Of a stretch of 64,000 nt of DNA, positions 44,370 through 62,712 are shown in pieces (position 1 is the first letter of the stretch; each line of letters starts with the position of its first letter). The translations under genes and the position numbers were made by a program. This stretch comes from Saxibacter everestensis (GTDB lineage: Bacteria > Actinomycetota > Actinomycetes > Actinomycetales > Brevibacteriaceae), in assembly GCF_025787225.1 (NCBI RefSeq), contig NZ_CP090958.1:3458550-3522549 (forward strand), given 5' to 3'. Below the pieces are notes generated by a model. That model was not told where the DNA came from. It saw nothing but the letters and a program-made list of their open reading frames with translations, and searched no databases.

Positions 44370-44440
44370 GCCCGTAGGCAGTTGTGGCATCGGGCCGGTT
44401 ATGCAGCAGAGCAATGAACTGGATGAGAAGAGGAGTGACG

Positions 44441-45937
44441 ATGAGCGAGCAGACAAGCCGTATGCGGCTGACCGATCCGGATGCGGTGCGGTCCCACGAT
44501 TGGCGCCTGATAGTTGGCGGCGAGCCGAGGCCGGCGATAAGCGGCCGGATGTACGACAACATCAGCCCGGTTACTGAGGACGTCGTCTGCCGGCTGCCCG
44601 ACGGCGGAGAGGAGGACGTGGAAGCGGCGGTGCGGCTGGGGCAGGCCGCCGCCAGGGACTGGGCAAGGCGTGCCCCCAGGGAGCGCGGCGAGATCGTCCG
44701 TGGTCTCGCAACGATCGTGCGGGAGCATAGCGGAGAGCTGGCAGCGCTGGATGCTATCGACGTAGGCAACGCGTACACGCCGATGCTGGGTGACGTCGAG
44801 ATGGGGGCCGATTCCCTTGAGTTCATGGCGGATGCGGCACTGTTTCTCTCCGGTGAGACATACAACGACATGACCTCGCATCTGCATTACACGCGGCGGG
44901 AACCTTTCGGCGTCGTCGCGCGGATCGTCGCCTTCAACCATCCAGTGATGTTCGCCATTCAGAAGATCGCCGCGCCGCTGGTCGCCGGCAACGCAGTGAT
45001 TCTGAAGCCCTCCGACAACAGCGCGCTGTCGGCCCTGAGGATGGGGGAGCTTTTCCAGGACGTCCTGCCGAAGGGTTTACTAAGCGTGCTGGTCGGCAAG
45101 GGCCCGGATCTCCCTCGAGCGATCGTCCGCCACCCAGATGTCAAGAGGATCGGATTCATCGGCAGTGAACTCACCGGACGGGCGATTCAGCGGGATGCCG
45201 CCGACGTAGCCGTCAAGGACATCTCTCTCGAGTTGGGTGGCAAGAACGCGATCATCGTTTGCTCCGACGTGGACATGGCGGCGGCAGCGGAGGGGGTTGT
45301 GAAGGGGATGAACTTCCGTGGCTGGCAGAGCCAGTCCTGCAGCTCGACCAGCCGCCTTTTCGTCCATCAGGACATCGCCGACGAATTGCTGGACGAGGTA
45401 GTTCGTCTGATTGCCGGAATTCGGATCGGCAATCCGCTGGACCCCTCGACGGAGATGGGAACCCTTGCGAGTCAGGCTCAGTTCGACAAGACGCTGCGCT
45501 ACGTGGACATGGCAAGGGAGGACGGCGCAGTACTGGTGACGGGCGGAGGACGGCCTGAGAATGTGGGTGACCGCGGCTATTACGTGTCGCCAACCGTCTT
45601 CGACCAGGTGGATCCCGGAAGCGGGATTGCACGCGAGGAGGTTTTCGGCCCGGTCTTGTCAGCCTTCAGGTGGCAGGACGAGGCAGAAGTGGTGCGGCTC
45701 GCAAACTCGGTGCGTTACGGACTGACCGGAGCGATCTGGAGCAACTCCATTTCACGGGCCCACCTGCTCGCACACGAGCTGGACACCGGGTACATCTGGA
45801 TCAACGACGCCGCCTCGCACTACACGGGCATCCCCTTCGGTGGTTACAAAGGGTCCGGAATTGGGAAAGAGGAGTCAGTCGACGAGCTGATCAGCTACAC
45901 CCAGGTGAAGACCATCAATCTTCGCCTAGCGCCTTAA
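44441..45937 (+). CDS. Aldehyde dehydrogenase
   Basis: A 498-residue NAD(P)-dependent dehydrogenase. Catalytic Cys300 is in Ser-Gln-Ser-Cys-Ser-Ser, and Glu264 in Leu-Glu-Leu-Gly-Gly is the general base. The ATG at 44441 has GAGGAG 6 bases upstream; an in-frame extension of 19 codons is rejected. It follows the ThDP enzyme gene and would oxidise the aldehyde that enzyme makes. Substrate unknown. The region after it up to 46124 contains a promoter. Confidence 0.9.
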   Translation: MSEQTSRMRLTDPDAVRSHDWRLIVGGEPRPAISGRMYDNISPVTEDVVCRLPDGGEEDVEAAVRLGQAAARDWARRAPRERGEIVRGLATIVREHSGELAALDAIDVGNAYTPMLGDVEMGADSLEFMADAALFLSGETYNDMTSHLHYTRREPFGVVARIVAFNHPVMFAIQKIAAPLVAGNAVILKPSDNSALSALRMGELFQDVLPKGLLSVLVGKGPDLPRAIVRHPDVKRIGFIGSELTGRAIQRDAADVAVKDISLELGGKNAIIVCSDVDMAAAAEGVVKGMNFRGWQSQSCSSTSRLFVHQDIADELLDEVVRLIAGIRIGNPLDPSTEMGTLASQAQFDKTLRYVDMAREDGAVLVTGGGRPENVGDRGYYVSPTVFDQVDPGSGIAREEVFGPVLSAFRWQDEAEVVRLANSVRYGLTGAIWSNSISRAHLLAHELDTGYIWINDAASHYTGIPFGGYKGSGIGKEESVDELISYTQVKTINLRLAP

Positions 45938-45986
45938 TCCCAGCCAGGCATAAGACAGAGCTATGAACATTATAGAAACAATCACT

Positions 45987-46015: not shown

Positions 46016-46089
46016 GGATGAATGAGGCAACCGCGCTGAGCTCGCGGGCCGCGGCAAAGGTCGCATTCTTCAAACTCAGCCGGATGGTC

Positions 46090-46105
46090 CTGTCAATGTC
46101 GACAG
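46090..46105. promoter_or_regulatory. Inverted repeat before the second NitT/TauT operon
   Basis: CTGTC-AATGTC-GACAG (5-base arms), also containing the perfect palindrome TGTCGACA (46097-46104), lies between the predicted promoter and the ABC ATPase start. It is a candidate operator. Confidence 0.4.
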
Positions 46106-46124
46106 ATCCAGGAGTGTTTCGCCC

Positions 46125-48573: not shown

Positions 48574-48599
48574 GAAATCAAAAGAAACAGAGGCACATC

Positions 48600-49652: not shown

Positions 49653-50606
49653 TCAGAACCCGGCTCCGCCCGCTGCGTCCTCGGTGGCTGGCGGTTCGGT
49701 CTCCAAGCTTTGCGCAACGTCGACGATGAGCTCCCGCAGCCAGCGATGAGCCGGATCTTCGGTGCGGCGGGGGTGCCAGAAGAGCGTCTGCGTGATCGGC
49801 TGCACGGGGACAGGGGGCTCATACAGCCGGATTCCGGCCACATCCTGAACCTCCTTCGCCAGCCGCTCATGAAGCATCGCGATGAAGCTGGTGCCGTTGA
49901 GCATGAAGGGCGCGATCAGGAAGCTCTCCGTGGTCATCTCGATGCTGCGTGCCACGCCCAGATCATCGAGCTGCTTGTCGATGTTCGACGGGCCGCCATT
50001 GACCCGGTAGGCAATATAGGGCAGCTGTGAGAAGAGTTCCGTGGTGATCCCATTGAGATCTTTTGGATGATTCGCGTCCGCGGCGCAGACGAAACGGTCG
50101 ATGAACAACGTACTGCGTGACATGTCGTCGACGTCCTCCGCGACCTCGAGTGGCAAAACAATGAGGTCGATAGTGTCTTGGCGGAGATGCTCTACGTAGT
50201 CGATCAGCACAGGCTGAACATGGAGCCGGACACCGCTCGCCACCGCCGAAAGGCGCGAGACCACTTGCCGCAGAAGCACAAGAGTGATGTAGTCACTGGC
50301 AGCGATCGTGAATGTGCGTTCGTCGACCAATGGGTCGAAATGCGGCCTCGCGGTAAGAGTCAGGTCGATGTTCTCAAGAATGTTCCTGAGCGGTTCACGC
50401 AGTCCCTCGGCGAACGAGGTGAGGACCAGTTGACGACCGGCCCGGACCAGCAGCGGGTCGTCCAGCAGCTTGCGTAGCCGGGCGAGAGACGAGCTCATCG
50501 CTGGCTGGCTTACCGACATCCTTTTGGCCGCGAGAGTGACGTGACGCTCCCGGAGGAGCGCGTCGAGGGAGACGAGAAGGTTGAGATCAACGCGTCTCAG
50601 ATCCAT
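49653..50606 (-). CDS. LysR-type regulator
   Basis: A 317-residue LysR protein. Its winged helix is in residues about 6-65 (Leu-Val-Ser-Leu-Asp-Ala-Leu-Leu-Arg-Glu, then Val-Ser-Gln-Pro-Ala-Met-Ser-Ser-Ser-Leu-Ala-Arg-Leu-Arg), of the NodD/NahR-like branch. The C-terminal half is the co-inducer domain. Members of this branch activate aromatic-acid catabolic genes. It lies convergent with the ABC operon and just downstream of the ECH/monooxygenase pair, so either could be its target. Confidence 0.9.
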   Translation of the reverse strand: MDLRRVDLNLLVSLDALLRERHVTLAAKRMSVSQPAMSSSLARLRKLLDDPLLVRAGRQLVLTSFAEGLREPLRNILENIDLTLTARPHFDPLVDERTFTIAASDYITLVLLRQVVSRLSAVASGVRLHVQPVLIDYVEHLRQDTIDLIVLPLEVAEDVDDMSRSTLFIDRFVCAADANHPKDLNGITTELFSQLPYIAYRVNGGPSNIDKQLDDLGVARSIEMTTESFLIAPFMLNGTSFIAMLHERLAKEVQDVAGIRLYEPPVPVQPITQTLFWHPRRTEDPAHRWLRELIVDVAQSLETEPPATEDAAGGAGF

Positions 50607-50697: not shown

Positions 50698-51423
50698 CTA
50701 GCTGCGAAGCAGGCTCCTGTCGGCCATCTCGACCGCGTACATGGCGATCCCAAGTGCTGGCGCGTCCCGGGGTGGAAGGTTCTCGGTTCGCGCGAGGAAC
50801 TCCTTGACCAGCCGAAGTGTCCGAGGATCGTAGCCGGCGATCTGCTCTGCGATGGCGGCGGCAGTCGCCTCGACGTCGTCATCGGCAACCGCACGGGCGG
50901 CCAGACCGGCCGGTACGGCCTCCCACCCCGATAGCTCGCGGCCGGTGAAGATGAGGTCCCCGAGAAGGTTCCTCGGAAGCACGTAACGGTAGTGGCTCAG
51001 CACGATCGTGGGCGGAATGCCCCGCGGAATCTCTGGGAATGAAAGGCGTGCGTCATCAGCGACGATGACGATGTCGCAACGTCCGGCAAGTGACAGGCCG
51101 GCGCCGACGGCCTGGCCCCGTACGGCGGCAATGGTCACCAACGGCGAGTGCTGCAGTTGTTCGTTCACCTGCTGAACACGGGTGAATTCCGCGGTAATCG
51201 CTTTCGGGGTCTGAGCCGCACCGGGCGCTTGCTCGCGGCCTAGTGAGAAGTCAGGGCCCGCCGCACCCAGTACCAACACCGTCGGGCCATTCGTGTCGTT
51301 CGCCAGCTCGGCAAGTGCCTGTGAGATCTCGTCCAGCGTGGTCGCGTCGAGGCGGTTCCCGCTCTCCGGCCGATTCAGCGTAAGGAAGGCAATGCGTTTG
51401 TCGAGGTCGATGTCTATCGCCAC
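50698..51423 (-). CDS. Enoyl-CoA hydratase/isomerase-family protein
   Basis: A 241-residue crotonase-fold protein. The oxyanion-hole segments are Gly-Pro-Asp-Phe-Ser-Leu-Gly near residue 60 and Gly-Gln-Ala-Val-Gly-Ala-Gly near residue 105. The GTG at 51423 has AAAGGAG 7 bases upstream and overlaps the stop of the monooxygenase gene by 10 bases. The reading frame continues far upstream inside that gene but is only its shadow. It may act on a CoA ester or an unrelated ring or double-bond substrate. Confidence 0.85.
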   Translation of the reverse strand: MAIDIDLDKRIAFLTLNRPESGNRLDATTLDEISQALAELANDTNGPTVLVLGAAGPDFSLGREQAPGAAQTPKAITAEFTRVQQVNEQLQHSPLVTIAAVRGQAVGAGLSLAGRCDIVIVADDARLSFPEIPRGIPPTIVLSHYRYVLPRNLLGDLIFTGRELSGWEAVPAGLAARAVADDDVEATAAAIAEQIAGYDPRTLRLVKEFLARTENLPPRDAPALGIAMYAVEMADRSLLRS

Positions 51424-52598
51424 AACAAGGCTCCTTTCGCTGGTAGAACCGGAAGGTTCAAGATGCGGTCCGAGGCGGCAATCCGGGCTGAGCCGTTCGC
51501 CTTTAGCTCTCTGCGTGCTTCGTCCAGCTGCTGGTGGGTCCTCACCATCTGTTCGCTGTGCAACATCTGCATCGAAAAGGTGTAGACGAACGCACATCGT
51601 GCGTACCGCCGCTGCACGTAACCGTCCAACATGTCCTCGACCGGTTTGTCCTGCGAGAGCTCGTCGGCAAGAACCAGGCCGTCTTCCAGTGCCATCCCTG
51701 CTCCCTCCGTCAGGTGCGGGGGAAAGGTATGCGCCGCATCCCCGCCGAGCACAATCCGGCCGCTGTACCACGGTGGCGGAAGGATTGCCGGTTCGAGCGG
51801 ACTGTAGACGATGTCGGAGTCGGGACCGAGTGCATCACGAACCTCAGCGATGTGATCCCCGTAGCCATTGAGCCGCTCCCGTAGGTAGCGCGGATAATCT
51901 TCCCGTGCCAACTTCTCGCTGGGGTCCTCCGGACGAATGTGGAAGAGGTACATCAATTCATCGTTCAGTGGCATGGCCCCGGTCTTGCTGCCGAGGCCCT
52001 GGTAGAACTCCATCGCGTCAACCTCAGGAGGACGGGGTGCCTGCAGACGCCAGGCGCCGTATCCCGAATGGATCGGTTCAAAAGCTTCGCCGAACGCGAA
52101 GATTCTCGTTGTCGAGCGGATGCCGTCAAAACCGACAACGAGGTCGAACTCATCACTTGACCCGTTATTGAAGACGACGTGAACGCGGTTGCCCTCCTGT
52201 TCCATTTGCTGCGCCGTCGTCCCAAGGCCGATCCCCACGCCGACCTTCAGCGCCGCATCGAGGAGGATGTCGTGCAGATCGGAACGGGATAGCGCGCAGA
52301 CCGCCGGCAGGCCGGGACCACCGAGCAAGAACTTGTGTTCGACGATCAACTCGCGGTTGTAATCGAAGTAGCGCATAGAGTCATACTGAAATCCCGCCGC
52401 AATAACCTGCGGGAGAACCCCGAGCTCGCCCAGAACACGCAAAGCGTTCGCGGGTTGGCCCAGCCCGACGCCGGGAACGGTGAACTCAGGGCGTTTCTCG
52501 ATCAGCAGAACGTCCATGCCACGTTGCCCAAAAGCCGCCGCCGATGCCATTCCGCCGATGCCGCCGCCAACCACAAGCACTCGACGAGACGCACCCAT
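51414..52598 (-). CDS. FAD-dependent monooxygenase (PHBH/salicylate hydroxylase type)
   Basis: A 394-residue aromatic-ring hydroxylase of group A. Gly-Gly-Gly-Ile-Gly-Gly is at residues 11-16, the Val-Gly-Phe-Asp-Gly-Ile-Arg-Ser (DG) motif near residue 155, and Leu-Gly-Gly-Asp-Ala-Ala-His-Thr-Phe-Pro-Pro (GD motif) near residue 285. It is divergent from the MarR gene and followed by the ECH-like gene. It should hydroxylate an aromatic or heteroaromatic acid. The substrate is unknown. Confidence 0.9.
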   Translation of the reverse strand: MGASRRVLVVGGGIGGMASAAAFGQRGMDVLLIEKRPEFTVPGVGLGQPANALRVLGELGVLPQVIAAGFQYDSMRYFDYNRELIVEHKFLLGGPGLPAVCALSRSDLHDILLDAALKVGVGIGLGTTAQQMEQEGNRVHVVFNNGSSDEFDLVVGFDGIRSTTRIFAFGEAFEPIHSGYGAWRLQAPRPPEVDAMEFYQGLGSKTGAMPLNDELMYLFHIRPEDPSEKLAREDYPRYLRERLNGYGDHIAEVRDALGPDSDIVYSPLEPAILPPPWYSGRIVLGGDAAHTFPPHLTEGAGMALEDGLVLADELSQDKPVEDMLDGYVQRRYARCAFVYTFSMQMLHSEQMVRTHQQLDEARRELKANGSARIAASDRILNLPVLPAKGALLWR

Positions 52599-52719
52599 TT
52601 CGTCCTCTTTTCGTGCACGGCTGTCAGTCCATTTTCAGCGTAGAAGAACGAGGAGAATATGAGAAAGCAATGATCTGTATGCCGTTCATCCATCCCGTTG
52701 ATATCCGCAGCGGCGTTGC

Positions 52720-52750
52720 TTTACATTGCTTACTGAAGTGCGTATCTTCA
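52720..52750 (+). promoter_or_regulatory. Promoter with overlapping inverted repeat before MarR
   Basis: TTTACA (52720-52725) and TATCTT (52743-52748) are spaced 17 bases. TGAAG (52734-52738) and CTTCA (52746-52750) form an inverted repeat that overlaps the -10 box, suiting autorepression by the MarR protein or control of the divergent monooxygenase gene. Confidence 0.5.
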
Positions 52751-52779
52751 ATGAGGTATATGGCTGGGAAGGGTTAGCA

Positions 52780-53367
52780 ATGCCGGGAAATCGCTCCACG
52801 GAGAACTTGGACACGGTCGAACAGGCTGCGGCGGCGGACGCGATGTCGGCTGATGCCCCCGCCACTTCCGTTGATCTTGGCCAAGATGTCAGGCAGCAGG
52901 ATTTCGGCTCGTATCTGACCCGAGTCGCGGAGGCGCGTTACGTCATGCGTAAGGTACTCCGCATCCTCAATGAAAGTTCCAAAGCTCATGGCCTTGACGC
53001 ATTGGAGCATCAGGCGCTTGTCCAAATTGCCGGTACACCCTCGGGAGCTGTCGCTATCCATGCGCTCGCTGACCGCCTGGACATCGTTCCGGCGTTCGGG
53101 TCACGGATCGTCAAACAACTTGAATCCAAGTCACTCATCGAGCGTTCAAGCTTGGAGGCCGATAAGCGCGTTACCTTGACGAGCGTGACCGAGAAGGGAC
53201 TCGAGCTGCTTCGGCAGATCGATGAGAGCGTGCACTACCAGATGGCTTATTTCCAGCGCGGACTCAATCCTCGTGATCGAGCCTCCGCTCTGGCAATCTT
53301 CGCGTTCTACGTCGGCGAACCCACCGATTCTGTGGTCGCAGAAGCGATCCGCGGGCTTCTGGTCTAA
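52780..53367 (+). CDS. MarR-family regulator
   Basis: A 195-residue regulator. The winged helix spans residues about 65-145: His-Ala-Leu-Ala-Asp-Arg-Leu-Asp and Ser-Arg-Ile-Val-Lys-Gln-Leu-Glu in the recognition helix, then Asp-Lys-Arg-Val-Thr-Leu-Thr in the wing. The ATG at 52780 has a GAAGGG box; an 18-codon longer form is rejected. It lies between the monooxygenase/ECH pair (divergent) and the six-gene HpaB operon (convergent), and is the likely local repressor. A MarR-style palindrome upstream of the flavin reductase gene is its candidate target. Confidence 0.87.
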   Translation: MPGNRSTENLDTVEQAAAADAMSADAPATSVDLGQDVRQQDFGSYLTRVAEARYVMRKVLRILNESSKAHGLDALEHQALVQIAGTPSGAVAIHALADRLDIVPAFGSRIVKQLESKSLIERSSLEADKRVTLTSVTEKGLELLRQIDESVHYQMAYFQRGLNPRDRASALAIFAFYVGEPTDSVVAEAIRGLLV

Positions 53368-53433
53368 CTGGCGCGAGCTTCAGGTCCCTCGAAGAGGAGC
53401 TGATTGCTGGGGCCGGCGACCTGGCGATCGTCG

Positions 53434-54717
53434 TCATTCCTCGTTGAGCGCAGCGTGGAGCGTCTGCGCTAACCGCAACACGAGCTGGTCATCGCCAAAG
53501 CGGCCCACGAGCTGTACACCCACGGGCAACCCGGTGGCGGCGTCGATGTGGGCGGGTACGGTCGCGGCTGGATTGCCGAACATGGACCAGGGCTGACAAA
53601 AGACCGGGTCACCCGTCCAGTCGATACCGGACGGGGCCGCGCCGGTGGCTGCAGGCATAACTATTGCCTCACCGCTTCCCAGCACGCGCGGAAGCATGGC
53701 CCTGAGAACATCCACTCGTCTCAATGCTTCACCGTAACTCCGGGGTCCGATAGCCAGGCCTTCTTCCATCCTGGTCCCGAGATTGTCGCTGAACTGAGAA
53801 GCATGCAGAACATAGTCTTGGCGCAGGTTATTGGCGATGTCGTAGTGCGCGATGAGGTTCTGCAGTTCGGGGATCTCTTCGAAGCCGGCTGGAAGTTCGG
53901 CTGCCTCGACCCGTAACCCCGCCGCAGTCAGCGCCAGCCACGAGCGGGCGAGCGCACTCCGGGCGTTCTGGTCAGCCTTGTCCCACCATGGCGTTTCGAT
54001 CACCCGAACCAGCTCGAGGTCCGGCGTCGGCCCCGACTCGGGAGATGGACCGAGCTCGGCGTACAGGTACGCCAGGTCTTCGGGTTTCTTCGCGAACAAG
54101 CCGATCGTATCGAGCCTCTGACTTGTGACGTTCACCCCCGCCATCGGAACGAAGCCAAAGGACGGCTTCATTCCGATCACGCCGCAGAAGGCGGCGGGCC
54201 TGATCGTCGATCCAACGGTCTGCGTCCCGAGAGCGAGAGGAACCATGCCAGCCGCGACGGCTGCGGCCGAACCGCTGGAGGATCCGCCTGGAGTATGGCT
54301 GCTATTGTGCGGATTCGTCGTGTCCGATGGTGTCCAGGTTGCAAATTCGGTGGTCGTGGTCTTACCGAGAATGACCGCGCCCTTCTCGCGGAGCCGCGCT
54401 ACGCAGGTTGCGTCGACACCTGGCCTGCGGTCCGCGTAGATCGACGTGCCGCGTCGGGTGGGCATATCGCGAGTGTCGATAACGTCCTTGACCCCCACCG
54501 GTACACCGTGGAGTGGCCCTTTCGGAGCCTCCGCGTCGCGCCGCCTGGCCTGTTCCAGGGCGAGGTCTGGGTCGAGATGGGCCCAGGCCTTGATGGTGGC
54601 TTCCCGCTCGGAGATCCGCTCGAAGCAGGCTTTGACAAGTTCTTCCGATGACAGCCGCCTTTCCGCGATCATCCCGGACAACGCACTGATGGGCAGTTGC
54701 AGCAACTCGTTCGTCAT
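53434..54717 (-). CDS. Amidase-signature family amidase, last gene of the HpaB operon
   Basis: A 427-residue amidase of the Ser-cisSer-Lys class. Lys in Val-Gly-Val-Lys-Asp near residue 77, cis-Ser in Gly-Ser-Ser-Ser-Gly-Ser-Ala near residue 150 and nucleophile Ser in Gln-Thr-Val-Gly-Ser-Thr-Ile-Arg near residue 175 are all present. Four bases separate it from the tandem-barrel gene. In this operon it could hydrolyse a ring-opened amide. The frame continues 29 codons upstream, but the ATG at 54717 starts the family N-terminus. Confidence 0.9.
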   Translation of the reverse strand: MTNELLQLPISALSGMIAERRLSSEELVKACFERISEREATIKAWAHLDPDLALEQARRRDAEAPKGPLHGVPVGVKDVIDTRDMPTRRGTSIYADRRPGVDATCVARLREKGAVILGKTTTTEFATWTPSDTTNPHNSSHTPGGSSSGSAAAVAAGMVPLALGTQTVGSTIRPAAFCGVIGMKPSFGFVPMAGVNVTSQRLDTIGLFAKKPEDLAYLYAELGPSPESGPTPDLELVRVIETPWWDKADQNARSALARSWLALTAAGLRVEAAELPAGFEEIPELQNLIAHYDIANNLRQDYVLHASQFSDNLGTRMEEGLAIGPRSYGEALRRVDVLRAMLPRVLGSGEAIVMPAATGAAPSGIDWTGDPVFCQPWSMFGNPAATVPAHIDAATGLPVGVQLVGRFGDDQLVLRLAQTLHAALNEE

Positions 54718-54721
54718 CACT

Positions 54722-55381
54722 TCAGCCCTTCGCCTGGTGGGCGGCCGCGCGACGGTACAACCAGCGGCCGGACTGCCCGAACCAGGGCCTCTCGGCGAGG
54801 GCATCCCGTTTGGGGCCGTTCCGTGCGCGGGCGCGTTCCGGAGAGCGCATCACTTCCGCGGTGGCGAGTTCGTGGAGGGCAAGATGCGTCCAGGGGCCAC
54901 CCACCCCGTCAACGACTCGGTAGCGGTGCACGCGCAGCCAGTCGCCGGCCTGGAGGAGGAGGGGCACGTGTTCGTCGACGTACCAGTCTTCGAATTCCTC
55001 CTCGTCCTCGCCCGGCACCTGGAAGGCAACGACCGACAGGAACGCGCCGCGTGCGTTCTCCTCACCCTGGTCAGTGATGCGCGTCATCGTGAACCGGGTG
55101 AAGTCTGAGACATGACCGAGGAAGTACTCAGTCTCCTCACCCGGGTCCACCTTGAGACGGAGGTACTCTGGGGTGGCGACCGCATTCAGCGATTCGAGTT
55201 CATAGATCGCGAGGTGATGGTGCGTGCTGCCTTCCGGCGGCAACTGCCAGTAGCGGAAAGCGCCGCGAAAACCCTCGAGCACGAGGCGCTTGGCGATGTG
55301 GTCGATGTCGTACCACCGTTCGAAGCGCGCCTCTTCACCGCGCGGAGGCCGCATTTGTGAAAACAGCATCGCTTCGGCCAT
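54722..55381 (-). CDS. Tandem dimeric alpha/beta-barrel protein
   Basis: A 219-residue soluble protein made of two similar ferredoxin-like halves. Each begins with a helix of the form Phe-Glu-Asp/Arg-Trp-Tyr-X-Asp/X-X-His (residues about 20 and 130), as in EthD/NIPSNAP-type stress-responsive barrel proteins. No metal or heme site is obvious. It overlaps the enamidase-like gene by 1 base (TGATG) and lies 4 bases before the amidase gene. It may be a tautomerase-like or oxidation helper. Function unknown. Confidence 0.7.
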   Translation of the reverse strand: MAEAMLFSQMRPPRGEEARFERWYDIDHIAKRLVLEGFRGAFRYWQLPPEGSTHHHLAIYELESLNAVATPEYLRLKVDPGEETEYFLGHVSDFTRFTMTRITDQGEENARGAFLSVVAFQVPGEDEEEFEDWYVDEHVPLLLQAGDWLRVHRYRVVDGVGGPWTHLALHELATAEVMRSPERARARNGPKRDALAERPWFGQSGRWLYRRAAAHQAKG

Positions 55382-56550
55382 CACGCACCGTCTCGGACGG
55401 CGACGGGCTTGATCGGGCCTGGGGTGTTCCGGCTCTTGGTGAACCTGACCATCCCGCCGGTGATGACTACGGCGACCGCGGGAACATCGCCCTGATCGAT
55501 GGCCGCCAAGGCGGTCGAGGCGGTGCAGCCCAATGGGGCGTCCAAAACTGCCAGGTCCGCCGGTGCGCCAACTATTAGACGGCCCGCATCAAGGCCGTAC
55601 TGTTCGGCGACGTTGCCTGTCGATGCGGTGATCGCCTGCCGCGCGGTTATCGGCCCGAGCGATGACATCTCTGCCATTTGACGCAACATCCCAAGCGGGA
55701 TCACTCCGGTGCCGGTCGGTGTGTCCGTCGCGATCATGACCCTATGGAAGACTCCGTGCTCCAGAGCCCTTCCGGCGATATCGATCGCCGATCGGAGGTT
55801 ACCGGCATGGACAAGCTGCAGCGCGATGCTGCCTCCCTCCGTGACGATTCGCTCGTTCTCCTCGCTGCTGAGCGCGGTCGGGCCCCCGTTGACGTGGCCT
55901 GCGATGTTGGGCTGCATGGCGAGCAGTGCGTCGACGCCGATCTTGTTGAGGCTGCCCGGGATGGACCCTCCTCCCGTGTGGCACATCACCGTGATCCCGG
56001 CTTCGCGGGCCGCGTTCACCAGCGGAACATAGTCCATCGGCGAGGAGAACGCGCCGAACCCCGCCTTCGCCAGCCAGACCCCGTCCTTCCTCAGTTCCGC
56101 GAAGTCGGCCGGGGTAAGGCCTGGTTCGAGGATCACCGACCCGCCATGGACGGTCATCCCCGCGGGTCGATAGTCGGCGTAACAATGGGCTGCCGCCACC
56201 GCGAGCGCTTTAATTCCGGTGACCGATGTTGGTCTGCCTGGCACGTGGACCTCACTTGCCGAGATGACACGTGTAGTGCCGCCGTGCAGATAGCTCTCCA
56301 GGAAGCCGATCGTCTGCTGACGTGGGGTGTAATCACCGAAGGTCGTATGGACGTGGGAGTCAATGAATCCGGGCGTTACGGTAGCTCCGGCGACATCGAT
56401 GACGGTCTGGTGGTCACGTTCGGTCACATCCTTGGAGTCCCCGATCCACGCGATAGCCCCTTCGTCGACGATGAGGGCGTCACCAGCAATGGGGACTCCC
56501 TCCATACCTCCATCGTGCGAGTCCCCGATGTTCACCAGGGCGAGACTCAT
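55381..56550 (-). CDS. Enamidase-like amidohydrolase
   Basis: A 389-residue metal-dependent amidohydrolase. His66-X-His68 (Asp-Ser-His-Val-His), a third His in Met-Cys-His-Thr-Gly-Gly, a fourth in Gly-His-Val-Asn-Gly-Gly and Asp in Ala-Thr-Asp-Thr-Pro form the metal centre. Segments such as Tyr-Thr-Pro-Arg-Gln-Gln-Thr, Pro-Gly-Arg-Pro, Val-His-Gly-Gly-Ser-Val-Ile-Leu-Glu and the C-terminal Thr-Lys-Ser-Arg-Asn-Thr-Pro match clostridial enamidase (nicotinate fermentation), which hydrolyses a cyclic enamide lactam (1,4,5,6-tetrahydro-6-oxonicotinate). Here it would hydrolyse the lactam made by the HpaB-type oxygenase. It overlaps its neighbours by 4 and 1 bases. Confidence 0.85.
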   Translation of the reverse strand: MSLALVNIGDSHDGGMEGVPIAGDALIVDEGAIAWIGDSKDVTERDHQTVIDVAGATVTPGFIDSHVHTTFGDYTPRQQTIGFLESYLHGGTTRVISASEVHVPGRPTSVTGIKALAVAAAHCYADYRPAGMTVHGGSVILEPGLTPADFAELRKDGVWLAKAGFGAFSSPMDYVPLVNAAREAGITVMCHTGGGSIPGSLNKIGVDALLAMQPNIAGHVNGGPTALSSEENERIVTEGGSIALQLVHAGNLRSAIDIAGRALEHGVFHRVMIATDTPTGTGVIPLGMLRQMAEMSSLGPITARQAITASTGNVAEQYGLDAGRLIVGAPADLAVLDAPLGCTASTALAAIDQGDVPAVAVVITGGMVRFTKSRNTPGPIKPVAVRDGA

Positions 56551-57128
56551 CGGAGTCCGCCGCCCTGGATCTCATTGGCACGGACGCCGCCGACCCGCTC
56601 GTGCGGGCGACTACCGGTTGCGAGCGCTACGGCGATCAAGAGCTCGTCGGGCCGGGGGGCGTCTGCCGTGGTGAGAGTAATGCCGTCGTAATGCGAGCGC
56701 ACGTAGAGCGCGTCCTTGTGGGCGAGCGGGATGTCGAGCGACGTGCCGGCAGCTCCTGTTTTCGTCATCGACGAGATCCAGGCTTCCCCGCCCCCGACGG
56801 CATCCCGAAATGCGTTGCCGAAGACGGTCGTCACACACGCCACCACGTGCTCCTGCTCTCCGTTCACCCCCGCAATGCCGCCCTTGCCGTAACTTTCAAC
56901 GCCTCGGCCGTCGAGCAGTGCCAGGCCACGCCGGGCGAGTTCGGTCGCCAGCCATGGGCTCGGCTCGGTGAGCGCGGACAGGTCCTGCGTGAATCCTCCT
57001 GCGAACGGGTTGGCGAAGACGACGCCAACGGCTGCCCTGATCAATGGTGTTTCAAGCGTCTCGCCTCCATCATGAACGGTCTCCTCCCGGTAGCTGACCC
57101 ACTTGCGGACGTTGTAATCGTTTGTCAT
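56547..57128 (-). CDS. PF06684 (amino acid synthesis family) protein
   Basis: A 193-residue soluble protein. Marks of the family are Asn-Pro-Phe-Ala-Gly near residue 40, Val-Glu-Ser-Tyr-Gly-Lys near residue 82, Ala-His-Lys-Asp-Ala-Leu-Tyr-Val-Arg-Ser-His-Tyr-Asp and Arg-Pro-His-Glu-Arg-Val-Gly-Gly near the end. The family name is historical; no reaction is established. I chose the ATG at 57128, which fits the family N-terminus; a GTG at 57185 overlapping the HpaB-type stop (TAGTG) is the alternative. It lies between the monooxygenase and enamidase genes, so a ring-related hydrolase or tautomerase role is plausible. Confidence 0.8.
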   Translation of the reverse strand: MTNDYNVRKWVSYREETVHDGGETLETPLIRAAVGVVFANPFAGGFTQDLSALTEPSPWLATELARRGLALLDGRGVESYGKGGIAGVNGEQEHVVACVTTVFGNAFRDAVGGGEAWISSMTKTGAAGTSLDIPLAHKDALYVRSHYDGITLTTADAPRPDELLIAVALATGSRPHERVGGVRANEIQGGGLR

Positions 57129-57184
57129 ATCGAACCCCGAGTCCTCGGCCTGGTTGCTGTATCGAATCCTTGAGTAGGAGGGCA

Positions 57185-58681
57185 CTACTGAAGATCATGC
57201 AGCGCAAGCTTCCGAGCTGGCACGAGGCCGTTCTCGTCGTATCCAGCGAGCGCTCGATCCACGAGGTCCTCACCCCGCTTGAAGTCGTAAACCTGGAACA
57301 TGCGCATCTTGACGAGGAACGGCGCACCGGCATAGAACATCTCGTACTGTTCGTGACGGCTGGCAAACTCGGAGCCGGTGAGATCCCACATGAGCTTGAG
57401 TAGTTTCACCCGCTCGACACTCGAAACACCGGGGGACTGAACGTATCGGTCGAGATCGGCGCGGCTCTGCGGATTCTGGAAGTCCTCGACGCTGGACGGC
57501 AACTGGATGATGCCTCCCCCGGCCAGATCGCGCACCATATGCAGCATCTTCGGGTACAGCTCGGATTGGATGACCATGACAGCGAAACTTTCAGCACGGG
57601 CCGGCCATGCCACTCCACGCTCGTCAATCTCGACGTTGTTTTCCTGTGCATATACCTGTCCGTGGATAAGTGATGCGTAGGCCGCCAACTCCCCCAGAGC
57701 GCCCTTCACCGGAGGTGCCTTGTCGGAACGATTCATCTTTGTGACCTTCGAAGCGAGACCCACGAGGAAGTCGAGCTTCGCCGTGAACCGGATCTGCGCC
57801 TGATTGTTCCCCAGCAGATGCGCCGGCGTCTCATTCCATTGATCGGCAACCAACTTGCGATCCCGGTAGACAAAGACGTGTTTCCACGGGACAAACACGT
57901 CGTCGAAGACCACGAGCGAGTCTGTCTCATCAAACTGCGAGGCGAGCGGATAGTCGAACACACTCGTGGCCGCACTTGCGTAACTTCGGCGTGAGAGCAC
58001 TCGGAGGCCGGGTGCCGAGAGTGGTACGGCAACCGAAATCGCATAGTCTTCGTCACCTTCGACGAGCGGGACAATACAACTGAGGATGATGTAATCGGCG
58101 ACAACCGCGCCTGTGGCGAGCATCTGGGCACCGGAGATGACGATCCCGTCCTCTCGTTCCTCTTTGACACCCGCGTACAGATACCTGTCCTCCTGCTGAT
58201 GCGCCGGTTTCGACCGGTCGATCTGCGGCGGGACGATTGCGTAGGTGCAGAACAGGTCGTTGTCCCGGGCGTACTCGTAGAACGCGGTGATGTTGTCGGC
58301 ATAGCGTTGACCGGAGCGTGCGAAAATATCGCTACGCGCAGCCCAACCGGCCAGGAAGCTGGCCACGTGCTCAGGTCCACGCCCGACCAGGCCGAAGCTT
58401 CTCTCGGTGCTCTTCCGAAGGGCTATCCGCCTCCGTTTCAGATCCTCACTGCTACGGGGAATGAGGTACGACAGACTGACCGGCTCGCCGGTGATCGGCG
58501 AGGGATAGGTCATGTCAGCCCTGTTCGCTTCGTCGTTCGTGAAGTCGTACAACTCGGCGATCGTGCCGATCACTCCCGTGAATCCGGGATGTGTAGTGAC
58601 ATCGCTGACCAACTCGCCATCGATATATACCTGCCGGCCGTCACGAAGGCCGTTTATGTAGTCCGTGCCTGAACGAGTCAT
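57185..58681 (-). CDS. HpaB-type flavin-dependent monooxygenase (group D)
   Basis: A 498-residue oxygenase related to 4-hydroxyphenylacetate 3-monooxygenase; uses FADH2 supplied by the flavin reductase gene just upstream (overlap ATGA). Family marks: Tyr-Glu-Tyr-Ala-Arg-Asp-Asn-Asp-Leu near residue 140, then Pro-Pro-Gln-Ile-Asp-Arg-Ser-Lys-Pro, and a C-terminal helical domain. The usual Thr-His before the Pro-Gln-Asp-Arg run is Thr-Tyr here, a position that in HpaB contacts the phenol, so the substrate may not be a phenol. Pyrrole-2-carboxylate monooxygenase is a known relative and fits the enamidase gene. The true substrate is unknown. Confidence 0.87.
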   Translation of the reverse strand: MTRSGTDYINGLRDGRQVYIDGELVSDVTTHPGFTGVIGTIAELYDFTNDEANRADMTYPSPITGEPVSLSYLIPRSSEDLKRRRIALRKSTERSFGLVGRGPEHVASFLAGWAARSDIFARSGQRYADNITAFYEYARDNDLFCTYAIVPPQIDRSKPAHQQEDRYLYAGVKEEREDGIVISGAQMLATGAVVADYIILSCIVPLVEGDEDYAISVAVPLSAPGLRVLSRRSYASAATSVFDYPLASQFDETDSLVVFDDVFVPWKHVFVYRDRKLVADQWNETPAHLLGNNQAQIRFTAKLDFLVGLASKVTKMNRSDKAPPVKGALGELAAYASLIHGQVYAQENNVEIDERGVAWPARAESFAVMVIQSELYPKMLHMVRDLAGGGIIQLPSSVEDFQNPQSRADLDRYVQSPGVSSVERVKLLKLMWDLTGSEFASRHEQYEMFYAGAPFLVKMRMFQVYDFKRGEDLVDRALAGYDENGLVPARKLALHDLQ

Positions 58682-59262
58682 TGCTGGTGAGCCTCCATGA
58701 TTAGTGAATCCTCAAAGACGATGGGAAGCGGATCTGGGCTTGTTCCGGGCTCGATCGGGCTCAAGCGCCGGTAATTGCCTCGGAAATGCAGAAGTGGACC
58801 CGTGGAGTCACGGTGAGCGGAGAGCCCGATCGCCTTGATGGAACCGATGATGATCACGTGGGTTCCGGTTTCGATAGCCTCGGTCACCTGACAATCGAAG
58901 AACACCATTGCGCTGTTCAGACACGGCGCATTCCAGGCCGACTTGGTGTCGAGCCACATGACGGGGAGCACCTTGTCCCCACCTGGGGCGGAACAATAGT
59001 CACAAAGCTCCTGCCCGTCTGTGGCGAGCAAATTGACCCCGAAGCGTCCTCGGGTACGAATCACGTTATGAGTGCGTGCCGAGAGACTGAGGCAGATGAG
59101 CGCAGATGGCGGGGTGAACGACACAGAAGTGAAGGCGGTGGCCGTCATACCGACGGCGTTGCTGTCGTCATCGAAGGTAGTGACGATGGTGACGCCGGCC
59201 GCGAACGTGCCGAGGGCACGGCGGACGTGCTCACGATCGGGAGCGTAGTGGTGCAATCCCAT
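58678..59262 (-). CDS. Flavin reductase (HpaC-like) partner of the oxygenase
   Basis: A 194-residue NAD(P)H:flavin oxidoreductase of the HpaC/flavin reductase-like family. The conserved Ala-Thr-Ala-Phe-Thr-Ser-Val-Ser and Pro-Pro-Ser-Ala-Leu-Ile-Cys-Leu segments lie near residues 45-65, and Gly-Arg-Phe-Gly-Val-Asn-Leu-Leu is next. The ATG at 59262 has GAGG 6 bases upstream; a GTG at 59274 is in frame. It begins the six-gene operon. A 19-base palindrome upstream is the expected regulator site. Confidence 0.88.
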   Translation of the reverse strand: MGLHHYAPDREHVRRALGTFAAGVTIVTTFDDDSNAVGMTATAFTSVSFTPPSALICLSLSARTHNVIRTRGRFGVNLLATDGQELCDYCSAPGGDKVLPVMWLDTKSAWNAPCLNSAMVFFDCQVTEAIETGTHVIIIGSIKAIGLSAHRDSTGPLLHFRGNYRRLSPIEPGTSPDPLPIVFEDSLIMEAHQQ

Positions 59263-59300
59263 CTTGTGCCTCACAAGTCGAAATCACTTACGCCAAGTCT

Positions 59301-59319
59301 AGCACTCAACTAGAGTACT
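59301..59319. promoter_or_regulatory. MarR-style palindrome before the HpaB operon
   Basis: AGCACTC-AACTA-GAGTACT: 7-base arms with one mismatch around a 5-base centre, 39 bases upstream of the flavin reductase start, in an A/T-rich region. MarR operators of aromatic catabolic genes look like this. The MarR protein at 52780 is the likely binder. Confidence 0.55.
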
Positions 59320-59432
59320 TTTGTTAACTATTTTTCAGGTAACGACATCAAGCGCTCGGCCCGTCGCCGGGCGTCATTCGCGGGACTCAGGATCTGGATC
59401 AGATCGAGCCCCAGAACGACCAGCAGCCGGGT

Positions 59433-60845
59433 TCAGCCCAGGTCAGGCCGCCGCAATCCAGCCGGGTTCAGTTCTTCGAACGACTTTGCGATCTGCAGCA
59501 GCCGGAGATCCTGCCGCGGCGGAGCCACGAGTTGCACCCCGACCGGCCAGCCCTCCGGCGTGAACCCGGCGGGCACCGAGATCGCGGGGCAGCCCGTGAC
59601 GGTGATGAAGTAGGCGGAACGCATCCAATCCAGATATGACGACATCTGCGTGCCAGCAATCTCCGCCGGGTACTCCATCGCCGCATCGAATGGCGGCACC
59701 TGCGACACCGGCATCACCAACAGGTCGTAGTCGGCGAAGAACTCCCGGGCGCGTTGGTAGACCAGCGTCTGCTGTGCCATCGCCGCAGCTAGGCCGCTGC
59801 CGGTCAGCGCTTCGCCATCCCGAATGTTCTGCGCGAGCGTTGCCTTGAACTTGTCCGGATCCCGGGCCAGAAGCGGTCCGAGCCCGATCTGGAACAGCCA
59901 CGCCCGCAAAGTGCGAAACGCGTCTTCGGCGCCGGTCAGATCCGGGTACGCGTCGGCGGTGTGCGCGCCCGCGGATTCAAAGACCTGGCGCTGCTGTTCG
60001 ACAATTTTCCGCACGCCGGAATCAACTGGGAACGACCCGCCGAGATCGGTGCTGAACCCGACCTTCAACCCGGCCAGCGGCGCAGCGGACAACCGGGCAA
60101 ACTCGCCGGCTGGCGAGTCAAGCGACAACGGGGTGCGCGTTGTCGGCTCGCCGATGACCGACAACAACAGGGCGGCGTCGTCAACCGTCCGTGCCATCGG
60201 TCCCTGCACGGCCAGGGCGTCCCACGGCGTCGCGTTCGGCCAGGTCGGAACCCTGCCCGGGCTCGGCCGGAACCCCACCACATTGTTGAATGACGCCGGG
60301 TTTCGCAATGAACCACCCATGTCGCTGCCGTCGGCCAGTGGCAACATTCCGGCGGCGAGCGCCGCCCCGGCGCCTCCGGATGATCCGCCCGCCGAGCGCG
60401 ACAGGTCGTACGGATTCCGAGTGGTGCCGAAGATCGGGTTGAACGTGTGCGAGCCGGCGGCCCACTCCGGAACGTTTGTCTTGGCGATGGTCACCGCTCC
60501 GGCGCTGCGCACCCGTTCGGCGATGAGGTCATCGGCGTCCGGAACGTGATCTGCCATCAACGGCGAGCCGTGCGTGCTACGCCATCCGGCCACGTCTGTT
60601 GTGTCCTTGAACCCAAAGGGCAGGCCGTGCAGCGGACCGAGCCAAGCGCCGTGCGCCACCGCTTCATCGGCTTCGGCTGCGCGCTGGCCGGCCTGGTCGA
60701 AATCGATGCTGACCAGCGCGTTGACCTCGCAGTTCACCGCCTCGATCCGCTCGCGGTGCAGGGCAAGTAGCTCACGTGCCGAGATGTCCTTCGACGCCAG
60801 GGCGTCAAGCATCTCGCGGGCCGTGCTGTAGCTGGAAATATTCAT
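59433..60845 (-). CDS. Amidase-signature family amidase next to an SSS symporter
   Basis: A 470-residue amidase. Lys in Phe-Lys-Asp-Thr near residue 80, cis-Ser in Gly-Ser-Ser-Gly-Gly-Ala near residue 155 and nucleophile Ser in Asp-Met-Gly-Gly-Ser-Leu-Arg near residue 180 are the catalytic triad. The SSS symporter gene ends 7 bases before its start, so the imported substrate is probably hydrolysed by it. No clear terminator follows, and the next gene to the left is the flavin reductase of the HpaB operon. Confidence 0.9.
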   Translation of the reverse strand: MNISSYSTAREMLDALASKDISARELLALHRERIEAVNCEVNALVSIDFDQAGQRAAEADEAVAHGAWLGPLHGLPFGFKDTTDVAGWRSTHGSPLMADHVPDADDLIAERVRSAGAVTIAKTNVPEWAAGSHTFNPIFGTTRNPYDLSRSAGGSSGGAGAALAAGMLPLADGSDMGGSLRNPASFNNVVGFRPSPGRVPTWPNATPWDALAVQGPMARTVDDAALLLSVIGEPTTRTPLSLDSPAGEFARLSAAPLAGLKVGFSTDLGGSFPVDSGVRKIVEQQRQVFESAGAHTADAYPDLTGAEDAFRTLRAWLFQIGLGPLLARDPDKFKATLAQNIRDGEALTGSGLAAAMAQQTLVYQRAREFFADYDLLVMPVSQVPPFDAAMEYPAEIAGTQMSSYLDWMRSAYFITVTGCPAISVPAGFTPEGWPVGVQLVAPPRQDLRLLQIAKSFEELNPAGLRRPDLG

Positions 60846-60852
60846 CCGTTAC

Positions 60853-62331
60853 TTAAACACTTTCTTCTTGAGGGTGTTCCGTCGCCTCGGGAATGCTTCG
60901 CAGTGGCTGCGTCGAGATCGCCACCGGACGGCGGCCCGTGGCCCGCAAGCCGGCCTCGGTGAGCATCAGCACAACCACGTTCGCGGCGAGGCCGAGAATT
61001 CCGGGATCGATTTCTGCGTGCGGCAGGCCGGTAAAGGTGAACAGCATGACAACCGCGACGCCGGCAACGATTCCGGCCAGCACCGACGCCTTCTGCGCTA
61101 TCGGCTGCTTGGGCAACGCTGCCGTGATGCCGGGCGCCAGTTGCGACAGGCCCGCGAATGTCAGCAGCAGCAGGTTGGCCAGCAGGTCAGGCCGCAGGAT
61201 ACCCAGCACGAGAGCCAGGCTGGCAGCGATCACCACGACGAAATGGTTGATCCGCAGCTTTGTCCGCATGCTCTTTGTGCGCACCAAATTGTGCGAGACC
61301 AGGGTCGAAATCCCGATGCACAACGCGGCCGCCGGGATCATCGCCGCCGACGCCGCAGCCACGGCCACCAGGCCGGTCACCCAGTCCGGAAGCGCTTCAC
61401 GGGCCAGGGTCAGCAGCACCGAATTGCTGGCAGCGTCGCGGGGCAGCACCAGCAGCGCCGTGAACCCGATGAACAGCGGGAAGATGATGACGACCTGGTA
61501 CAGCGAGAGGTAAACGTTGTTCGACCGGATCACCCGGGCGCTCTTGGCGGCCAGCATCGGCGGCCACAGGTGCGGCAGGGTCAGGAACGCCGACCCGATG
61601 GCGGAGATCAGCATACTGCTAAGCCACCACATCTGGCTGTACTCGCCGGCCTGAATCGTGAGCAGCTTTTCGTCCATCGCGGCAACGGATTCGAAGACAT
61701 GCGAGATACCGCCGGCGTAGTGCAGCGGGATCACGATGATCAGCAGGGCCATCGCCCCAATCATCAGCGCGTCCTTGATGTACGCGGTGCGCGCCAGGCC
61801 GTGAATCCCGGCCCACAGCACGAATACGACGGTCAGAACCGTTGCGACCACCATTGAGATCACGCCGGAGGTGGCGTTTCCGGTGACCAGCTTCACGATG
61901 AGGCCGAGCCCGGTGATCTGCAGTTGCAGATAGGGCAGCAGGAAGACCACGCCGCAGATGGCGACGATCTTGCCCAGCCAGGGGCTCTGGTACCGATCGG
62001 CGAAGAAATCCGCCTGGGTGATGTAGCTGCGGTCCTTCGCGTAGCGCCAGACGATCGGACCGATGAAGAACAGACCGATATAGCCGAGCGGGATGTACGG
62101 AATGGCGTAGCTGGAGGCGGCACCCGCGGAGAAGGCGATGCCGGCAACACCGAGGAAGGTGAACGTGGTGAACGCTTCGCCCGCCTGCAGGAACCACATG
62201 GTCAGCGTCCCGTAGTTCCGCTTACCGACGGTCCACTCGGCCAGGTCGGTATGCGGCTTGCTACGACCGCGGATGGCGACAACGGCAATGCCGACCATGC
62301 CGATAATGGCGACCCAGAAGGTGAGGCTCAC
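60853..62331 (-). CDS. Sodium:solute symporter (SSS family)
   Basis: A 492-residue membrane protein with about 13 helices. The pattern Gly-Lys-Arg-Asn-Tyr-Gly-Thr-Leu and then Phe-Leu-Gln-Ala-Gly-Glu-Ala-Phe-Thr-Thr-Phe near residues 30-50, and Ile-Pro-Ala-Ala-Ala-Leu-Cys-Ile-Gly in the middle, are those of SSS transporters of the PutP/pantothenate-like group. The GTG at 62331 overlaps the stop of the small DUF3311 gene (GTGA). Substrate unknown; the downstream amidase suggests an amide or a related acid. Confidence 0.9.
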   Translation of the reverse strand: MSLTFWVAIIGMVGIAVVAIRGRSKPHTDLAEWTVGKRNYGTLTMWFLQAGEAFTTFTFLGVAGIAFSAGAASSYAIPYIPLGYIGLFFIGPIVWRYAKDRSYITQADFFADRYQSPWLGKIVAICGVVFLLPYLQLQITGLGLIVKLVTGNATSGVISMVVATVLTVVFVLWAGIHGLARTAYIKDALMIGAMALLIIVIPLHYAGGISHVFESVAAMDEKLLTIQAGEYSQMWWLSSMLISAIGSAFLTLPHLWPPMLAAKSARVIRSNNVYLSLYQVVIIFPLFIGFTALLVLPRDAASNSVLLTLAREALPDWVTGLVAVAAASAAMIPAAALCIGISTLVSHNLVRTKSMRTKLRINHFVVVIAASLALVLGILRPDLLANLLLLTFAGLSQLAPGITAALPKQPIAQKASVLAGIVAGVAVVMLFTFTGLPHAEIDPGILGLAANVVVLMLTEAGLRATGRRPVAISTQPLRSIPEATEHPQEESV

Positions 62332-62576
62332 TTGTCCTCCTCCGTTTCGAACGGACGCACCAGGCCGTATTCGACCGCGGCAAGTGCCGGCGTGAGCAAG
62401 AGCACCCAGGCCGAGCACCAGACGATAAGCCGGGGCATCCCCAGCCAGAGGTCAGGTGTGTTGACGAACGGCAGCCATGCGGCGCTGAGCAGCGCCAGCG
62501 CCGGAATGACGGGGACAGCGAGGAGCCAGCGGCGAGCGCCACCTTGCCTGACGGCCCGGATACTTGCGTCAATCAT
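62328..62576 (-). CDS. DUF3311 small membrane protein, partner of the SSS symporter
   Basis: An 82-residue protein with two hydrophobic segments. Leu-Trp-Leu-Gly-Met-Pro-Arg-Leu-Ile-Val-Trp is typical of DUF3311, a family usually encoded directly before an SSS symporter. The ATG at 62576 has AGGA about 8 bases upstream; a longer form is rejected. The overlap with the symporter start implies translational coupling and a joint membrane complex. Confidence 0.8.
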   Translation of the reverse strand: MIDASIRAVRQGGARRWLLAVPVIPALALLSAAWLPFVNTPDLWLGMPRLIVWCSAWVLLLTPALAAVEYGLVRPFETEEDK

Positions 62577-62712
62577 CGATTCGATCCTTCGCGCAGTGGT
62601 CCAACGGATTCTGCGTAAGTGTGCGCAGGTGACGCAGGTCACCAGCAAGCAGGAGCTTCGTCAAACGGCCGTTTTGGCGGAATTCGCTAAGGATCCGGCG
62701 AATTCCGACGGA

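Follow-up and report, generated by a model that had tools for sequence, protein, structure and literature searches.

The window analysed here, a stretch of 64,000 nucleotides from Saxibacter everestensis (contig NZ_CP090958.1), carries an operon in which an HpaB-type flavin monooxygenase is combined with an enamidase-like amidohydrolase. According to the listing of open reading frames, with start codons checked, the operon consists of six minus-strand frames running from 59274 down to 53434. The first (58678..59274; GTG start at 59274, ATG alternative at 59262) encodes a flavin reductase resembling the small component HpaC (PF01613 Flavin_Reduct, 129.9 bits), which stayed under the cut-off of all 8 NCBIfam families that it matched. 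It is followed by the HpaB-type group D flavin monooxygenase (57185..58681; PF11794 HpaB_N, 320 bits; PF03241 HpaB, 196 bits), a PF06684 protein (AA_synth, formerly DUF1185; 56547..57185, GTG start at 57185, ATG alternative at 57128; 207.7 bits, cut-off 27), the Lys-type enamidase-like metal-dependent amidohydrolase (55381..56550; Amidohydro_1, 63 bits), a predicted tandem dimeric alpha/beta-barrel protein, DUF4286/EthD-like (54722..55384), and an amidase-signature amidase (53434..54804; PF01425, 258 bits). Overlaps of 4 bases join reductase and HpaB, PF06684 protein and amidohydrolase, and amidohydrolase and barrel protein, and HpaB and the PF06684 gene overlap by 1 base if the latter begins at its GTG, or stand 56 bases apart if it begins at its ATG. 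The longest amidase frame begins at 54804, within the barrel gene, and the likely internal starts at 54720 (GTG) and 54717 (ATG) leave a gap of 1 and 4 bases after that gene, respectively. The tight six-gene operon described in the first-pass annotation, which had been made from the letters alone, was thus borne out by the reading frames, by the Pfam families and by homologues at two other loci, in Alteribacillus (L019) and Paraburkholderia (L041), and its coordinates were correct. In a consensus scan of 52500-62800, promoter- or terminator-like sites were no more numerous than in shuffled sequences.

The closest solved relative of the amidohydrolase was the enamidase of Eubacterium barkeri (2vun), with 337 bits over residues 5-381, whereas the second-best, a dihydroorotase, reached 33 bits. 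The curated NCBIfam models were also far under their cut-offs (39.9 bits against 575 for the best dihydroorotase model, 46.1 against 298.15 for imidazolonepropionase). Accordingly, enamidase is by far the nearer relative of the protein, ahead of both dihydroorotase and imidazolonepropionase, and the homology check that could have refuted the first-pass annotation came out in its favour. The likeness to the E. barkeri enzyme, which belongs to anaerobic nicotinate fermentation, extends over nearly the full length, and the His/Asp metal-ligand positions are the same (H66, H68, H191, H219 and D276). The amidohydrolase probably works like enamidase. Furthermore, its K162 was aligned opposite Glu164 of the E. 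barkeri enzyme, a residue which we take to bridge both metals. The genome holds one such enamidase and two HpaB homologues. At E 1e-60 or better, the enamidase was found in 2 of the 60 genomes searched of the host's family, the host included, and the gene is therefore rare in the family.

The Glu164 position was compared in 93 homologues, namely the window protein, 80 genome-contig loci, 11 of 25 plasmid matches and one genome of the same family. The genome-contig scan used patterns from seven Lys-type proteins and retained the best 80 of 278 matches, and the proportions given here are not population rates. Presence or absence of neighbours was judged over 64 kb for the window and over 4-19 kb for the other loci, some of which end at contig ends. 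All 65 members of one group, the window included, carry Lys at this position, and all 28 of the other carry Glu; a single branch with support of 99/97 sets off the Glu rows. H68, H191, H219 and D276 were invariant in the 65 Lys-type rows. The presumed metal ligand H66 was His in 48 of them and was replaced by Gln in the other 17.

The two groups also differed in their neighbours. A 6-hydroxynicotinate reductase homologue was found at 21 of the 28 Glu-type loci versus 0 of the 65 Lys-type loci, and a UPF0280 protein at 16 of the 28 Glu-type loci. Four kinds of oxygenase were scored: HpaB, PnpA/HspB-like flavoprotein, Rieske oxygenase and a flavoprotein like that at 51414-52598 of the window. 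At least one was present at 41/65 Lys-type loci (window included) versus 0/28 Glu-type loci, and at 35/53 versus 0/19 when only loci flanked by over 5 kb on each side were considered. By kind, the Lys-type loci held HpaB in 19 cases, the PnpA/HspB-like flavoprotein in 12, the Rieske oxygenase in 11 and the window-like flavoprotein in 2, of which the window is one. Without the window, the counts were 40/64 for any oxygenase, 18 for HpaB, 13 for the barrel and 47 for PF06684. Fisher tests (1e-9, 3e-15) were not counted as evidence, as the rows split on one branch. The Lys/Glu split happened once in the tree, and its correlation with gene context therefore contrasts two groups and does not reflect many independent changes. 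The residue and context tests place the amidohydrolase outside the E. barkeri type: it has Lys for Glu164, lies in a separate clade and has an oxygenase at its locus instead of 6-hydroxynicotinate reductase. The clostridial-type enamidase of the first-pass annotation was therefore not borne out.

The window HpaB stayed under both NCBIfam equivalog cut-offs for the 4-hydroxyphenylacetate (4-HPA) enzymes (345 of 480.2 and 302.8 of 885.2). In Thermus thermophilus HpaB, Arg100, Tyr104 and His142 are presumably substrate-site residues; in the window enzyme Arg100 is kept, Tyr104 is changed to His and His142 to Tyr. Thus, the earlier assignment to the HpaB type stood at the level of the HpaB_N and HpaB domains, but neither the 4-HPA cut-offs nor the Tyr104/His142 check agreed with it. 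The Arg/His/Tyr combination was present in 18/18 covered HpaB rows of enamidase loci (17 of 19 loci), and Arg/Tyr/His in three reference chains and in the paralogue of the same genome (L099, 35% identical to the window HpaB). In the tree, the window HpaB clustered with enzymes of Paraburkholderia, Bradyrhizobium and Alteribacillus (88/85) within a set of 11 (99/98). The pairing of an HpaB-type oxygenase with an enamidase-like protein, proposed earlier for this operon, recurs in other genomes, and with a Lys-type enamidase it was found in Bacillota, Pseudomonadota, Acidimicrobiia and Rokuibacteriota. An HpaB homologue at E 1e-100 or better occurred in 8 of 394 genomes of the class, the host included, and no enamidase was seen near HpaB in the other seven (five judged over 10-17 kb, two over 3.5-4.5 kb).

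The Arg/His/Tyr HpaB was considered as a marker of enamidase loci and rejected, because six loci without enamidase within the stretch examined (L108 and L118-L122) carry the same residues. The combination is thus characteristic of a broader HpaB subfamily rather than of the enamidase partnership. Other HpaB homologues had Arg/Tyr/Phe (L110, L112 and L113), Arg/Tyr/His (L111) or Arg/His/Asn (L107). Three of the six loci, on Caballeronia, Roseateles and Thioclava plasmids, show a sister cluster of flavin reductase, HpaB (Arg/His/Tyr), cupin or DUF4437 protein, amidase and DUF2848 protein (L118 6439-12224, L119 6446-12113 and L120 6454-10993), with no enamidase in the stretch and, in L119, with the DUF2848 gene on the opposite strand. 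A locus in a Bradyrhizobium metagenome-assembled genome (MAG; L029) possessed two different HpaB oxygenases (7496-8986 and 14417-15922; 39% identical to each other) in the vicinity of a single enamidase and PF06684. In addition, two Rokuibacteriota MAGs (L066 7433-17496 and L083 7553-14962) had molybdenum hydroxylase homologues together with HpaB and a Lys-type enamidase; PF06684 was not seen within the stretch examined.

The oxygenase at Lys-type loci has changed repeatedly. Nine changes of the HpaB label, all forced by starred branches, were required on a tree built from 53 Lys-type rows (quick method). At L116, in genome G550, an enamidase 69% identical to that of the window is accompanied by a PnpA/HspB-like flavoprotein (47% identical to that of plasmid locus L007), a PF06684 protein (63%), a barrel protein (50%) and a nearby molybdenum hydroxylase homologue. 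At L018, a PF06684 protein and an aldehyde dehydrogenase accompany the enamidase (68%), and a search for the four kinds of oxygenase found none within 9 kb. The flavoprotein of the sister locus L009 matched PnpA with 246 bits and HspB (6-hydroxy-3-succinoylpyridine monooxygenase) with 211 bits.

The PF06684 protein was found at 48/65 Lys-type and, similarly, at 21/28 Glu-type loci (69/93), and in 47 of these 69 it lay on the same strand less than 300 bases from the enamidase. As it is present whatever the oxygenase, its function probably belongs with the hydrolase step rather than with the attack on the ring. Its solved relatives are 2qtp and 3byq, and the predicted model matched 3byq with Z 27.3 (root-mean-square deviation (rmsd) 1.6, 190 aligned); Rid proteins and chorismate mutases matched at Z 4.6-5.7, which is background level. 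Passages of the structure paper describe a chorismate-mutase-like hexamer and suggest a role in amino-acid metabolism (PMC2954203). In passages of another study, HcdD (DUF1185) is called a homologue of TgnF, a protein credited with stimulating the oxidation of succinic semialdehyde in the trigonelline pathway; for HcdD, the study could see no such effect (PMC7913881). A role in enamine or tautomer chemistry would suit these contexts. Two Glu-type enamidase loci (L014 887-4377 and L016 3427-7247) contain a tandem pair of PF06684 genes with UPF0280 and a 6-hydroxynicotinate reductase homologue; the tandem copies may form a heteromer.

The barrel protein matched no Pfam family at E 0.001, and hence DUF4286 (PF14114) was not reached; against the EthD model TIGR02118 it scored 21.2 bits (cut-off 30.5). 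Its relatives in L019 and L041 matched DUF4286 with 47.5 and 40.6 bits, respectively (cut-off 25.8), and it was 36% and 41% identical to two plasmid proteins annotated as DUF4286. PHROGs gave no match for the barrel or the PF06684 protein, and the barrel sequence had no match in the PDB at E up to 1. The predicted model (pLDDT 91.4, 11-sequence alignment) showed two ferredoxin-like repeats. The top fold match was 2pgc, an uncharacterised marine protein (Z 18.9, rmsd 3.6, 200 aligned), followed by sulfur oxygenase reductase 2cb2 (Z 17.5, rmsd 3.1, 214 aligned), an anthrone-oxidase-like protein (17.1) and PenE (16.5), and a bacterial chalcone isomerase was also among the matches (Z 12.4). Muconolactone isomerase was absent among the fold matches listed, which excludes nothing. 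On the predicted model, the protein has the tandem dimeric alpha/beta-barrel fold, a fold that serves oxygenases and isomerases alike and decides for neither. The structure prediction called for earlier thus provided the tandem fold of the barrel and the 3byq fold of the PF06684 protein, but it did not separate oxygenase from isomerase. At E 1e-25, the barrel occurred in 2 of 396 genomes of the phylum, the host and G550; in the latter it has enamidase and PF06684 as neighbours within 6 kb. It was also present on three plasmid records, beside the enamidase in L007 and L009 and without it in Salipiger L117. The two DUF4286 barrels of L117 (7001-7666 and 9315-9959) lie near a flavin-dependent oxidoreductase, a dihydrodipicolinate synthase (DHDPS)-family protein, an aldehyde dehydrogenase and a thiamine diphosphate (TPP) enzyme.

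Two loci carried nearly the same set of genes as the window. The Alteribacillus locus L019 has homologues of the first five operon genes (flavin reductase 34%, HpaB 53%, enamidase 53%, barrel 40% and PF06684 46%), and Paraburkholderia L041 has the same five within 6.6 kb. Such recurrence indicates that the gene set is beyond chance. Of the proposed co-occurrence of all six genes, five genes were therefore found together; the operon amidase had no homologue among the matches in L019 or L041. The five genes are accompanied by a tripartite ATP-independent periplasmic (TRAP) transporter and regulators in L019, and by a major facilitator superfamily (MFS) transporter, a porin and regulators in L041. 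Queries for aldehyde dehydrogenase, molybdenum hydroxylase, Rieske oxygenase and 6-hydroxynicotinate reductase found nothing in either locus. More distant genes, which may or may not belong, encode a TPP enzyme, a UbiX-like flavoprotein and a FAD_binding_4 protein in L019, and an aldo/keto reductase and a flavodoxin-like protein in L041. With such minimal gene sets, one oxygenation and a hydrolysis may suffice to reach central metabolism. By arithmetic, pyrrole-2-carboxylate (C5H5NO2) plus one O and two H2O equals 2-oxoglutarate and NH3, which corresponds to a single oxygenation with two hydrolyses, and pyrrole-2-carboxylate is the simplest fit to the L019 and L041 sets as a candidate substrate. 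The TRAP transporter in L019 and the SSF symporter in the window suggest a carboxylate substrate. Pyridine acids are possible as well, given the molybdenum hydroxylase homologues in 6/65 Lys-type loci and L116; in the window, no molybdenum hydroxylase was detected.

Starting from the observed genes and families, the recurrent pairing, the Lys/Glu split and the residue swap in HpaB, we propose that the operon serves the aerobic ring opening of an N-heteroaromatic carboxylate. The flavin reductase would pass reduced flavin to the HpaB-type oxygenase, which would hydroxylate the ring next to the nitrogen, and the hydroxylated ring would collapse to a lactam. The tandem barrel protein may then shift the double bond to give a cyclic enamide, in analogy to the formation of the enol-lactone by muconolactone isomerase in the beta-ketoadipate pathway, and the Lys-type enamidase would cleave the C-N amide bond as the counterpart of enol-lactone hydrolase. 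The PF06684 protein might speed the hydrolysis or tautomerisation of the remaining enamine, with release of ammonia. The general scheme of oxygenation followed by enamide hydrolysis is likely, and is supported by the enamidase homology with its ligands kept and by HpaB near 19 of the Lys-type enamidases, with other oxygenases elsewhere and none of them at Glu-type loci. The full version, with the roles assigned to the barrel and PF06684 proteins, has slightly less than an even chance of being correct, and the conversion of pyrrole-2-carboxylate to 2-oxoglutarate and ammonia, the most likely choice for a single substrate, is itself doubtful.

Several findings weigh against this proposal or parts of it. 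None of the four oxygenase kinds was present at 24/65 Lys-type loci, and both nearest enamidase relatives (L018 and L116) were without HpaB within the stretch examined. The HpaB with swapped residues was also found without enamidase at the six loci named above, so that the presence of HpaB by itself is no sign of an enamide. The barrel was not seen in 51/65 Lys-type loci, so the isomerase step is not general; moreover, several of its best structural matches are oxygenases, and the Salipiger plasmid has two barrels and no enamidase within 14.6 kb. The likeness of the PF06684 protein to Rid proteins does not rise above background (Z up to 5.7), and the amidases are unexplained by the pyrrole scheme.

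The same logic might operate on a pyridine carboxylate or hydroxypyridine, with HpaB hydroxylating a pyridone and the enamidase opening a six-membered unsaturated lactam. This is somewhat unlikely, although the E. barkeri enamidase, according to passages of PMC7356986, acts on the six-membered ring of 6-oxo-1,4,5,6-tetrahydronicotinate. The molybdenum hydroxylase homologues at Lys-type loci, also near the G550 enamidase, are in line with it, as is the resemblance of the L009 flavoprotein to PnpA and HspB. The class A flavoprotein of the window has a distant similarity to 6-hydroxynicotinate 3-monooxygenase (85 bits) and MHPC oxygenase (83 bits), but a protein of the salicylate-monooxygenase type matched it best (105 bits), and neither the window nor L019 and L041 gave a molybdenum hydroxylase, the latter two being without an aldehyde dehydrogenase as well. 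For the barrel, the fold matches annotated as anthrone oxidase-like protein, monooxygenase PenE and sulfur oxygenase reductase would agree with a second, cofactor-free oxygenase of the anthrone-oxidase kind and hence with two oxygenations in the pathway. However, the chalcone isomerase stands in the same list, identity is about 10% and the fold decides nothing, and we regard this role as unlikely.

Degradation of an amide or N-acyl compound by the operon is improbable; in that case HpaB would act on an ordinary phenol, the amidases would clip side chains and the enamidase would hydrolyse a simple lactam. Two amidases flank the operon, and HpaB homologues with an amidase and no enamidase in the stretch exist. 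On the other hand, the Tyr/His pair of the phenol site was swapped in every covered row of the enamidase loci, and amidase homologues are rare while PF06684 is common at these loci. As for HpaB and enamidase being chance neighbours from separate pathways, the different oxygenases between loci and the two nearest enamidases without HpaB nearby could be taken in its favour, but the genes overlap here and the same pair occurs in the four groups named above, which makes such an origin highly improbable.

The proposed ring opening was compared with known systems. The HpaB/HpaC pair of 4-hydroxyphenylacetate 3-monooxygenase shares the family and the reductase partner with the window pair, which differs in lying under the curated cut-offs and in the reversed Tyr104/His142. 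In the beta-ketoadipate pathway, muconolactone isomerase and enol-lactone hydrolase carry out a double-bond shift in a five-membered ring and then its hydrolysis; the logic is alike, but that ring is an oxygen lactone and the hydrolase is unrelated, so the pathway is an analogy only. In the trigonelline (tgn) and pyridine (pyr) pathways, a two-component flavin oxygenase leads to an enamide that is then hydrolysed. Compared by description, these are acyclic N-formyl enamides formed after ring cleavage, whereas a cyclic lactam is proposed here. A two-component pyrrole-2-carboxylate monooxygenase from Rhodococcus sp. was published in 1997 (Becker 1997, listed in PMC6165268). Judged by its title, it is likewise a two-component flavin oxygenase acting on an N-heteroaromatic acid. 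To our knowledge, no enamidase or PF06684 protein has been connected with it. For 4-hydroxypyridine in Arthrobacter IN13, passages of PMC7356986 report that the flavin monooxygenase KpiA acts before KpiC, an amidohydrolase-family protein 28% identical to enamidase, which opens the ring as a dioxygenase of 3,4-dihydroxypyridine. By this description, the order of flavin monooxygenase and amidohydrolase-family protein is alike, but KpiC is a dioxygenase. According to passages of PMC3511419 and PMC9304392, the reductive E. barkeri-type route is reported from an aerobe, Azorhizobium, and has been proposed to operate in strain SG-6C. The passages of a skatole paper concern group E enzymes (PMC13101512). 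In open-access full text, including passages of PMC7356986, PMC9304392 and PMC7560415, with subscription literature outside the search, no HpaB-enamidase pairing was found.

If the proposal holds, aerobic opening of N-aromatic rings by oxygenation and cyclic enamide hydrolysis would be widespread, and a testable role would be available for DUF4286-like barrels and for PF06684, which has had structures since 2007 and a role only suggested. The Lys/Glu residue would also be a sequence marker telling oxygenative from reductive pathways in genomes. More speculatively, the Lys-type enamidase and PF06684 could form a general, so far uncharacterised hydrolytic module of aerobic N-heteroarene degradation that takes the products of interchangeable dearomatising oxygenases (HpaB, PnpA/HspB-like and Rieske). 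The Glu/Lys change of the bridging ligand would then mark the switch between reductive and oxygenative entry, and PF06684 would be the enamine hydrolase of both branches.

The genes around the operon may add to the pathway. Upstream on the minus strand lies a second amidase, a probable associate (59433..60845; PF01425, 336 bits; NF005686, 468.5 bits, cut-off 465), and 7 bases upstream of it, on the same strand, the monocarboxylate-permease-like SSF symporter, also a probable associate (60853..62418; PF00474, 61.7 bits; NF046076 MctP, 187.7 bits, under the cut-off of 625). Neither gene was part of the operon as the first-pass annotation described it. Homologues of the operon amidase were found in L025 (39%) and L045 (34%). 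Three further genes are possible associates. The class A flavoprotein monooxygenase (51414..52598, minus strand) is 61% identical to a protein at L044 8302-7148, whose gene is divergent from a PF06684 gene starting at 8416; the aldehyde dehydrogenase (44384..45937, plus strand) is 64% identical to the one adjoining PF06684 in L018; and the LysR regulator (49653..50606, minus strand) is 54% identical to L018 11090-10161. Since these three recur near other enamidases, the pathway here may be longer than in L019 and L041. Beside the operon, at 37641-49595, the plus strand encodes an amidase, an aldehyde dehydrogenase, a TPP enzyme and two ATP-binding cassette (ABC) systems whose binding proteins are of the NMT1/THI5 type. 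A fourth amidase of the window lies at 11197-12612.

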